Source: Candidatus Poribacteria bacterium (lineage in GTDB: Bacteria; Poribacteria; WGA-4E; UBA9662). Taken from it: DNA of 41,359 bases. Shown here one piece after another: positions 24,634 through 28,076 of this stretch (positions are counted from its first letter, which is position 1; each line of letters starts with the position of its first letter). The stretch spans positions 1 through 41,359 of the forward strand of contig PAQF01000063.1 of the NCBI GenBank assembly GCA_002709695.1, in the 5' to 3' direction. Both the position numbers and the translations under genes were made by a program. The notes under the pieces were generated by a model. It saw only the letters and a list, made by a program, of their open reading frames with translations, did no database searches and was not told the origin of the DNA.

Positions 24634-24726
24634 GTTACGAATTACCATATTTACATTCAAGAATTCTAATATATCCCCGTATCGCGACTTGAGTAAACAA
24701 ACGCTACTCCATACAAGAACTAAACC

Positions 24727-24755
24727 TTGACATCCAATTCGCTATTTGCTAAGAT
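24727..24755 (+). promoter_or_regulatory. Strong sigma70-type promoter for the ileS leader
   Basis: A perfect TTGACA (24727-24732) and TAAGAT (24750-24755) are exactly 17 bases apart, placing the transcript start near 24762. The leader to the ileS ATG is then about 183 bases, long enough to hold a leader peptide and terminator. Confidence 0.75.
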
Positions 24756-24789
24756 TTTCCTCCAAAGTAATAGATATATAATCACTAAA

Positions 24790-24867
24790 ATGCTCACAAT
24801 TACAGTCATAATATCTTCCGTCTTGATTTCAATTATAATTTTGATCGATGGTGGGCAAAAAGCCTAG
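24790..24867 (+). CDS. Isoleucine-rich leader peptide of ileS attenuator
   Basis: A 25-codon frame from ATG (24790-24792) to TAG (24865-24867). Eight codons are isoleucine: residues 4, 7, 8, 13, 15, 16, 17 and 19, using ATT, ATA and ATC. The run SIIILI (residues 14-19) sits directly before the first RNA pairing segment at 24847-24856. No good ribosome site precedes the ATG: the nearest bases are AT-rich with no purine run. The combination of Ile codons, short length, a stop in the leader and a terminator downstream is the signature of a ribosome-mediated attenuator, not of a functional small protein. Confidence 0.7.
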   Translation: MLTITVIISSVLISIIILIDGGQKA

Positions 24868-24917
24868 GTAAATCCTAAAGAAGCCCACCATCTCAATGTC
24901 AATGGTGGGCTTTTTTT
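24847..24917 (+). promoter_or_regulatory. ileS transcription attenuator with competing hairpins
   Basis: Three segments compete. A is GATGGTGGGC (24847-24856), B is GCCCACCATC (24883-24892) and C is ATGGTGGGC (24902-24910). A pairs with B over 10 bases; B pairs with C over 9 bases and is followed by seven T. A lies inside the leader peptide gene, just after the Ile codons, and B starts 15 bases after the stop codon. A ribosome finishing the peptide would cover A and let B-C terminate; one stalled at the earlier Ile codons would leave A free to pair with B. An inner TAGG/CCTA stem lies in the A-B loop. It has no T-box motif. Confidence 0.75.
24883..24917 (+). terminator. Intrinsic terminator in the ileS leader
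   Basis: A perfect 9-bp stem, GCCCACCAT (24883-24891) with ATGGTGGGC (24902-24910), 10-base loop, followed by TTTTTTT (24911-24917). It lies only 27 bases before the ileS ATG. The preceding gene is on the other strand, so it can only act on the ileS transcript. Confidence 0.85.
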
Positions 24918-24944
24918 ATGCATTGAAACAGGAGCATCAAACTT

Positions 24945-27900
24945 ATGTTTAAGGAAGTATCAACAAAACTACATTTTCCAAAAATCGAGGAAGAAATTTT
25001 AGAGTTCTGGCAAACTAAAGATATTTTCCAGAAAAGTGTTAAAAACCGATCACTTGATACACCATTTGTTTTCCTAGAAGGCCCTCCTTTCGCCAATGCT
25101 CCACCTGGAGTCCATCATGTCCTAGCACGTGTCATGAAAGATGCCGTCTGCCGATACAAAACAATGACAGGACATTATGTGCAACGAAAGGCAGGTTGGG
25201 ACACACATGGCCTACCTGTTGAGTATCAAGTTGAGAAAAAGCTCAACATAAAAAACAAACAGGATCTTGAAGCTTATGGTGTGAAAAATTTCATCGAAAA
25301 ATGCAAAGAAAATGTCTTCCAGTATGAACAAGACTGGAGGAAAATGACCGAGAGAATTGGTTTCTGGGTCGACCTAGATGATCCATATATCACACTATCA
25401 AATAACTATATTGAAAGTGTATGGTGGATTCTAAAACAGGCTTGGAAAAAAGATTTACTATACCAAGGTCACAAAGTCCAACCTTACTGTCCTCGTTGTG
25501 GAACCACGTTGGCGAGTCACGAGGTTGCCCAAGGATACCAAGTTGTAAAAGACCCATCGATCTATATAAAGTTTCCAATCAAAGACCTCGACAATACATT
25601 TTTTCTCGTTTGGACAACAACACCTTGGACACTACCATCCAATGTAGCAATTGTTGTTGGCGAAGATTACGATTATGTTTCCGTTGAATATCAGGGACAA
25701 GAACTCATCCTAGCTAAAGCCCTAATCAGTAACGTCTTTGGCAAAGAAGAAAAATTGGAAATTAAAAAAGTATTCAAAGGAAAAGAACTCCTCGGCCGGG
25801 AGTATGAACCACTCTTTAATTTTGTTACACCTAAAGAGAAAGCATATTATGTCATTGGTGGCGATTTTGTGACTCTTACAGATGGCACAGGGCTTGTTCA
25901 CACAGCCCCTGCATTTGGTCAAGATGACTATGAGATGCTACTTAAGTATAATCTGCCTTTTGTACAATTGGTCAATACCGCCGGAAATTTCGTGGACGAG
26001 GTTCAACCATGGGCAGGCGAATTCGTTAAGGACGCTGACCCCAAGATAATTGATAACTTAGTAAATAGGGGATTGATGCTGAAAACAGCCGAGTATGAAC
26101 ACGAATATCCATTCTGTTGGCGCTGTGACACACCTCTATTGTACTACGCTCGAAAATCGTGGTTTATCCGAACTACCGCTATTCGGAACCAGTTGCTTAA
26201 ACACAACCAAGAAATCAATTGGTACCCAGAACATATCAAGGACGGTCGTTTCGGAAGATGGCTTGAAAATAACATTGATTGGGGACTAAGCAGAGAAAGA
26301 TACTGGGGAACACCACTACCCGTATGGAAATGTCATGATTGTGAGCATCATCATGTCATCGGTTCAATCCAAGAACTTAAAGAACACGGTCACAATGTAC
26401 AGGACGATATAGAACTTCATCGTCCATATATTGACGAAATTATTTTAGCCTGCCAAAAGTGTGGAGGCAAAATGTCCCGACTCGAAGATGTAATTGACTG
26501 TTGGTTCGATTCGGGAGTAGCTCATACAGCTCAATGGCATTATCCTTTCGAAAATCAAGATATATTTGAGAAAAATTATCCCCCGGATTTCATCTCGGAG
26601 GCTATAGACCAAACGCGTGGCTGGTTCTATAGCTTACTGGTAACAGGAACCCTGCTGTACGACAAACCAGCCTACAAAAATTGCTTATGTCTCGAACTAA
26701 TAACTGGAGCAGATGGGCAAAAAATGAGCAAAAGTCGCGGTAATACGATAGACCCATGGGAGATTCTTGATAACCAAGGTGCTGACGCCATGCGCTGGTA
26801 TCTTTATACCTCTTGTCCACCATGGACTCCCCGTGCATTCACTGTTGAATCAATCAATGATGCGCTAAAGAAATTCATGGGAACTCTCTACAACGTTTAC
26901 GGGTTCTTCGTGATGTATGCTAATCTTGATGGGATCGATTTTTCGAACATTCCAGATCTCTCCAATAGATCAATGATGGACCAATGGTTAATCTCAAAGT
27001 TGCATTCAACTACCCAACAAGTTCAAGATGAAATGGGCAACTATCACATTACCAATGCCACACGTGCTATTGCTGAATTTGTTGATGATTTGAGTAACTG
27101 GTATGTAAGACGATCTCGTGACCGATTCTGGGGTGCGGAAATCGGATTAGATAAACAATCAGCTTATGTTACGCTTCACCAAGCATTAGTAGATGTAGCG
27201 AAATTGCTAGCACCATTTACACCATTCATCGCTGACTCAATCTACAGAAACCTAATCTGTTCCATTAATCCGAATGCAGCAGAAAGTGTTCATTTAACTG
27301 ATTTCCCTATTGTGGATGAACACCTGATAAATAAGCAACTTGAAGAAGACATGGCAGTTGTTCGTGACATTGTTGCTTGGGGACGGACTTTGCGAAATCA
27401 AACAGGAATCAAAATCCGTCAACCACTATCATCCCTCACGATTGAAAATAACAAGAAAAAATCTGTTAATCGTTTAAAGGATCTTGTCCTTGAGGAACTA
27501 AACATAAAAGAAATTCACTTTATTGGACAAGATAAGAGTCAATTTTACAATTTTGAAGGCAAAATCGACTTCAAAATTCTTGGTCAAAAGTATGGCAAAT
27601 CTGTTCAATCAATCGCTAAAGCGATTGAAGCAGCTGACGGTGACACCCTGATGCAAAACATGACAGCAAACGGAAACGTTAAGATTGAAGTTGATAGCCA
27701 ATCATTTACACTTGAAGAAGATGAAATTCATTGGCAAGGTAAGACACGAGATGGTTATGTCGTTGACTTTGATAACAATAAATTCGTTGCTCTTAACACT
27801 GAACTGACAGAAGATCTAGTCCTAGAAGGCTTTGCACGGGAAATTGTAAATAAAATCCAGCAAGCTCGCAAAGAGGCGGACTTTAATGTCTCAGATCGCA

Positions 27901-28076
27901 TCAAAATCAGTATTGAATCGACTGATATCGTTCATCAAGCGTTTGATCAATACCAAGATTACATAACCACCGAAACCTTAACTGAGGAGATCATTCCTAC
28001 TCCCAACCCAACAGCCTTTATAAAGTCACAAAAAATAAATGGTGAAGATGCAACCATCAGTCTAGAACAAATATGA
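24945..28076 (+). CDS. ileS: Isoleucyl-tRNA synthetase, type 2 with swapped signature motif
   Basis: 1043 residues, class I synthetase of the eukaryote-like IleRS2 type. The signature after FLEGPPFANAPP reads G55-V56-H57-H58, whereas class I enzymes have HxGH; the KMSKS loop is at 593-597 (DGQKMSKSRGN). Other landmarks are GWDTHGLPVEYQVEK, YCPRCGT (C182, C185), the CP1 editing-domain region with TTPWTLPSNVAIVV and TDGTGLVHTAPAFGQDDYE, and cysteine pairs near CHDCEHHH and CQKCGG. It charges tRNA-Ile and edits valine. AGGAG lies 10 bases before the ATG. It is expressed from the promoter at 24727 through the attenuator. Confidence 0.97.
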   Translation: MFKEVSTKLHFPKIEEEILEFWQTKDIFQKSVKNRSLDTPFVFLEGPPFANAPPGVHHVLARVMKDAVCRYKTMTGHYVQRKAGWDTHGLPVEYQVEKKLNIKNKQDLEAYGVKNFIEKCKENVFQYEQDWRKMTERIGFWVDLDDPYITLSNNYIESVWWILKQAWKKDLLYQGHKVQPYCPRCGTTLASHEVAQGYQVVKDPSIYIKFPIKDLDNTFFLVWTTTPWTLPSNVAIVVGEDYDYVSVEYQGQELILAKALISNVFGKEEKLEIKKVFKGKELLGREYEPLFNFVTPKEKAYYVIGGDFVTLTDGTGLVHTAPAFGQDDYEMLLKYNLPFVQLVNTAGNFVDEVQPWAGEFVKDADPKIIDNLVNRGLMLKTAEYEHEYPFCWRCDTPLLYYARKSWFIRTTAIRNQLLKHNQEINWYPEHIKDGRFGRWLENNIDWGLSRERYWGTPLPVWKCHDCEHHHVIGSIQELKEHGHNVQDDIELHRPYIDEIILACQKCGGKMSRLEDVIDCWFDSGVAHTAQWHYPFENQDIFEKNYPPDFISEAIDQTRGWFYSLLVTGTLLYDKPAYKNCLCLELITGADGQKMSKSRGNTIDPWEILDNQGADAMRWYLYTSCPPWTPRAFTVESINDALKKFMGTLYNVYGFFVMYANLDGIDFSNIPDLSNRSMMDQWLISKLHSTTQQVQDEMGNYHITNATRAIAEFVDDLSNWYVRRSRDRFWGAEIGLDKQSAYVTLHQALVDVAKLLAPFTPFIADSIYRNLICSINPNAAESVHLTDFPIVDEHLINKQLEEDMAVVRDIVAWGRTLRNQTGIKIRQPLSSLTIENNKKKSVNRLKDLVLEELNIKEIHFIGQDKSQFYNFEGKIDFKILGQKYGKSVQSIAKAIEAADGDTLMQNMTANGNVKIEVDSQSFTLEEDEIHWQGKTRDGYVVDFDNNKFVALNTELTEDLVLEGFAREIVNKIQQARKEADFNVSDRIKISIESTDIVHQAFDQYQDYITTETLTEEIIPTPNPTAFIKSQKINGEDATISLEQI

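Follow-up and report, generated by a model that had tools for sequence, protein, structure and literature searches.

Ribosome-mediated attenuation is a textbook mechanism, and in the pheM-pheST system of Escherichia coli an aminoacyl-tRNA synthetase operon is controlled by leader-peptide attenuation via cognate codons. Leader-peptide attenuators have also been predicted for trpS and leuS of Streptomyces (PMC1262725), and leader peptides with cognate codons have been predicted for hisS/hisZ of bacilli (PMC2965389). For ileS of Actinobacteria translational T-boxes, not leader peptides, were reported (PMC1262725), and the main text of PMC2965389 does not mention ileS. We found no ileS leader-peptide attenuator in the open-access literature, a scope that leaves out the survey of Lopatovskaya et al. 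2010 (Mol Biol 44:128, cited in PMC4833913); ileS as a target is apparently undescribed, and priority is not certain.

The locus considered here lies in a 41,359-nt contig (the window, meaning the whole stretch of DNA that was analysed) from the 5.2-Mb assembly of a Candidatus Poribacteria MAG, and its ileS gene is closest among named records to those of Candidatus Poribacteria MAGs (64-65% protein identity). An earlier note on this DNA had described an Ile-rich ORF upstream of ileS, with a stop codon, three pairing segments A, B and C, and a T7 tract, and all of these were found at the positions it gave (Table 1). Eight of the 25 leader codons are Ile (codons 4, 7, 8, 13, 15, 16, 17 and 19), and the stop codon is TAG (24865-24867). 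Segment A pairs with B through 10/10 Watson-Crick pairs and B pairs with C through 9/9, the latter helix extending into the A/T tail; the two pairings are perfect and mutually exclusive, as the note had claimed. A simple terminator scan had overlooked this hairpin, its loop being ~10 nt and the scan maximum 8. The ileS ATG (24945) follows 27 nt beyond the B-C stem and T7 tract, and the gene product matched its family model with 969 bits against a cut-off of 621. No obvious Shine-Dalgarno sequence was seen for the leader ORF. The promoter scan is expected to give 1.6 matches of such quality by chance in the region; the promoter sequence (TTGACATC...TTTGCTAAGAT) is also present in the upstream regions of two related genomes, G001 and G002.

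Table 1. Features of the ileS leader region in the window
Feature	Position	Strand	Basis or remark
Probable sigma-70-type promoter, TTGACA-17-TAAGAT	24727..24755	+	Consensus scan, 10/12
Leader peptide ORF, MLTITVIISSVLISIIILIDGGQKA, then stop	24790..24867	+	25 codons; homologous Ile-rich leaders in relatives
Ile-dense control codons 13-19, I-S-I-I-I-L-I	24826..24846	+	Sequence; equivalent run conserved in family f3
Segment A, GATGGTGGGC, antiterminator 5' arm (leader codons 20-23)	24847..24856	+	Complementarity to B, covariation
Segment B, GCCCACCATC, shared arm (with A antiterminator, with C terminator)	24883..24892	+	Pairing, covariation
Segment C, ATGGTGGGC, intrinsic terminator 3' arm	24902..24910	+	Pairing with B, covariation
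T7 tract of intrinsic terminator	24911..24917	+	Sequence
Shine-Dalgarno of ileS, AGGAG	24930..24934	+	Sequence
ileS, isoleucine--tRNA ligase, 1043 aa, presumed regulated gene	24945..28076	+	TIGR00392

On the strength of this anatomy, together with an Ile frame kept in relatives, exclusive helices that covary and leader codons that match the gene, we consider with high confidence that the element is a classical ribosome-mediated transcription attenuator before ileS. Transcription would start near 24760, and the leader ORF, whose coding-like conservation suggests that it is translated, would be read by a ribosome following behind RNA polymerase. With Ile-tRNA(Ile) plentiful the ribosome would reach the stop codon and lie over segment A, leaving B free to pair with C, and transcription would end at the T-tract. 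Given a standard footprint, a ribosome positioned on the stop codon would span ~24843-24878 and leave B, which fits the note's proposal that a terminating ribosome hides A and spares B. With charged tRNA(Ile) short, the ribosome would stall in codons 13-17 and expose A; a ribosome with its A-site at codons 13-15 covers up to ~24839-24845 by the same standard footprint, leaving A free. A-B would then form before C has been made, no terminator would arise, and ileS would be read through. Stalling, co-transcriptional timing and control of ileS expression are what we infer from these features.

In the window itself the energies of the A-B transcript (-21.9 kcal/mol) and the terminator (-19.0 kcal/mol) are balanced, and the minimum free-energy fold of the full-length leader is the terminator. 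Since the complete leader prefers the terminator, the choice for antitermination must come during transcription, by order of synthesis. We do not claim a general protecting fourth segment for the window, as A pairs upstream almost equally in shuffled sequences (0.83 versus 0.76 in shuffles); likewise the upstream fold that would form a protecting hairpin of a segment 1 with A, favouring termination when the leader is not translated, was not beyond shuffles there (MFE z = +0.9). A stable upstream fold was seen in four related genomes (G060, G070, G008 and G018; MFE z -2.3 to -4.5).

A covariance model (R1) built from 31 leaders found matches in 65/85 genomes of the phylum, mostly at ileS, and within the same taxonomic order nearly all regions upstream of this gene had this arrangement. 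The element was present before ileS in families f1, f2, f3, f4, f8 and f10 (leader examples among f2, f4, f8 and f10 being NIRLSIGIISIIIIPSRDGGLMQTT, GIIIGLLRAGGG and NDDIIIIRLLQTMVGAE), despite IleRS identities of ~42% for f4 and 32% for G070 versus the window. Family f3 gave 39 distinct ileS leaders, all ending close to I-I-I-A-I-R-R-A-V-V-G and stop, typically as ...I-S/R/F/H-I-I-I-A-I-R-R-A-V-V-G. Here the A arm is formed by the last three codons (GTGGTGGGC) and B is GCCCATCAC, with a GTG..GGG/GCG arm and a T-tract 3' of B. The Ile run before A-I-R was III in 28 of the 39 leaders and IIII in five, the remainder comprising one II, one IIIII and a few leaders in which one residue was substituted. 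Run length differs by whole codons, whereas the untranslated linker ranges over 28-33 nt; ATT, ATA and ATC are all used at the Ile sites, and the Arg and Ala sites vary synonymously.

The same f3 leaders bear on a rival explanation, that the leader peptide arrests the ribosome as a nascent chain (in response to Ile or some other signal) and that empty Ile codons play no part. The C-terminal AIRRAVVG is almost invariant in this family, with CGT at codon -6 in 39/39 leaders, an invariance exceeding what codon-run sensing alone would demand. The VVG is, however, dictated by the A segment, and C-termini differ elsewhere (PSRDGGLMQTT in f4 and DGGQKA in the window), whereas the feature in common is the cognate codon run, and this run becomes one of Leu or Tyr codons according to the gene. 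We regard nascent-chain arrest as very improbable.

The earlier note had asked for related ileS leaders to be aligned and for compensatory changes in A, B and C to be sought. The Ile-rich frame proved to be kept in dozens of leaders, and both alternative helices covary. In an alignment of 21 diverse leaders, B-C was paired in 91.7% of cells, with both-side changes at 6/12 pairs and a covariation of 0.259 against 0.175 +/- 0.017 in shuffles; for A-B the corresponding values were 94.3% of cells and 0.232 against 0.169 +/- 0.020. When the segments were slid as controls, pairing went down to 29-58%.

We weighed these results against an ordinary constitutive terminator, belonging to an upstream transcript or damping ileS, that happens to follow a chance ORF. 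The terminator is indeed strong, and no other fold of the entire leader is more stable (z-score for folding of the leader, -3.5). Ile-rich ORFs also arise in this AT-rich stretch, in that ATG ORFs of 15-45 aa with at least eight Ile occurred in 27/3000 (0.9%) shuffles of 24640-24944. Yet a triple of A, B and C with a T-rich tail occurred in 0/3000 dinucleotide shuffles of the same interval; a complementary A within the ORF was likewise found in 0 shuffles, and in nature it is conserved with covariation. The conserved Ile frame, and leader residues that follow the gene, contradict this explanation, which we judge very improbable. Least probable, to the point of being nearly negligible, is control of ileS by a T-box or metabolite riboswitch with the ORF incidental: ileS is a frequent T-box target in Gram-positive bacteria (PMC1262725, for Actinobacteria), but neither the window nor any of eight related loci gave an Rfam match reaching the gathering score, the best match was a weak one to the attenuator model Thr_leader (E 0.024; 23.7 bits with a threshold of 55), and promoter to terminator spans ~160 nt, about half of it ORF. 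The reading of the region as an attenuator, put forward by the note, is thus supported by the conserved Ile frame, the compensating helices, the fitting geometry and the absence of a T-box, with its function predicted from sequence.

Several ileS leaders depart from the pattern. G001, a sister species and the sole other genome of the genus, has a homologous leader (L006) whose Ile stretch is out of frame, which is either a real loss or an assembly error; as read, this leader gives an Asn-rich peptide with a TGA stop overlapping the start of segment A. The ileS leaders of family f5 (L212 and L219, in G061 and G062) have the same core and are rich in Phe/Tyr/Trp/Leu, not Ile, possibly reflecting a change of signal. 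Ile codons are few in the G003 leader, the element was not seen upstream of ileS in G012 or G046, and G005 has a terminator stem at ileS without a recognised leader. These exceptions would fit loss or re-targeting.

As a separate observation on the gene product, the window IleRS scored strongly against the models for mupirocin-resistant MupA/MupB (~990-1030 bits, far under the 1900 cut-off); such scores point to an enzyme that is probably eukaryote-like.

Both models of the leader element, R1 included, also matched leaders of other amino-acid genes, the downstream genes having been assigned with NCBIfam for representatives and by similarity to representatives for the rest. Leaders before leuS were Leu-rich (e.g., NLSALALRLRLLGLLRL), those before tyrS and DAHP synthase were Tyr/Phe-rich (TTLYFFYLYLFLLYLRC), and those before citramalate synthase were Ile-rich (VIAIIIIIRIAAPCVVGGG). 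The window's own genome has a related attenuator before DAHP synthase (L207; G000:C39:37256-37356, minus strand) with a Tyr/Phe-containing leader (SSIFCLYYTFNIYSEV / MSRIRIELSSIFCLYYTFNIYSEVDGRQFGNEP, then stop); a 2-isopropylmalate-synthase-like gene comes next after DAHP synthase at this locus. Over 48 loci, with related loci treated as independent, 0/20000 permutations of the gene labels gave a match between leader residue and gene as good as the one found. Two matches were set aside: one at G008:C58:108723 had no matching leader, and a Met-rich frame before a metG-like gene (L234; G000:C53:40396-40471, E 0.15) continues through the terminator. We also observed that L145-L152 of genus g7 have a related core and a conserved leader, MFYL..LTLMHENCLC...GIAMCRAVVG and stop, with conserved Cys; the gene that follows encodes a 716 aa protein without an NCBIfam match.

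The core that we propose for these elements reads GGTGGGC ... GCCCATCATCGA ... TCGATGATGGGC-T and comprises terminator and antiterminator. The stem GCCCAYCATCG...CGRTGRTGGGC was found at 26 sites in 14 genomes, 25 of them before ileS, leuS, tyrS or DAHP synthase, and the reversed stem pattern gave 0 matches in the same search. The core would accordingly appear specific to these amino-acid genes, which suggests a cassette that was copied and re-targeted; that 25/26 copies stand before amino-acid genes would favour descent over convergence.

Outside this group, we examined ileS upstream regions of other phyla (fetched by homology), which were mostly T-box-like or showed nothing, and NIOZ-UU3 alone stood up. 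In this MAG (GenBank 'Candidatus Cloacimonadota', JACNJG010000028.1) a leader MIKDIEKAIGIIIINSPPCRF with its stop is followed by a terminator and then by ileS. The terminator and Ile-rich leaders are kept across the NIOZ-UU3/G085 family (L237-L255), whose leaders can be as simple as MKINIIIIIIFNP and also include MKIIIKIIIIRNP and MKVQIGIIIIIFPPCRARQN, each ending in a stop codon. Judged by eye, the NIOZ-UU3 sequence has no relation to the poribacterial core. The A-B pairing in this family was judged from the folding of one member only, and we consider the family a candidate for an analogous ileS leader attenuator of unrelated sequence. Another Ile-rich candidate, L069, was discarded after inspection, the surrounding sequence having no terminator. 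To a broader proposal we would give about an even chance: that Poribacteria possess one cassette, copied before several amino-acid genes and re-targeted by leader codons alone (Ile, Leu, Tyr/Phe) so as to form a modular sensor of tRNA charging, and that another bacterial group independently evolved an ileS leader attenuator.

With the element described here, ileS joins the genes apparently under leader-peptide attenuation. The findings suggest that a deep uncultured phylum uses attenuation for several synthetase and biosynthesis genes, in contrast to the T-boxes of Firmicutes, and a common core with swapped codons offers a natural set for studying how attenuator specificity changes. The apparently modular attenuator family is absent from Rfam, and the window element has weak similarity, below Rfam thresholds, to Thr_leader (RF00506) and Phe_leader (RF01859). 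Compared with the thr, ilv, leu, his, trp and pheA attenuators of Proteobacteria, the window has the same short cognate-rich ORF that runs into the antiterminator's first arm, and the same exclusion by that antiterminator of an intrinsic terminator lying ahead of the structural gene. It differs from these biosynthetic attenuators in that its target is an aminoacyl-tRNA synthetase, in that it belongs to a non-proteobacterial candidate phylum, and in its three-segment form, a protecting hairpin not being supported. The Streptomyces trpS and leuS leaders and the hisS/hisZ leaders of bacilli are, like that of the window, synthetase leaders outside Proteobacteria, but they concern other amino acids and other phyla. 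With pheM-pheST the window shares the principle and no detected sequence relation, Ile codons and ileS taking the place of Phe codons and pheST.
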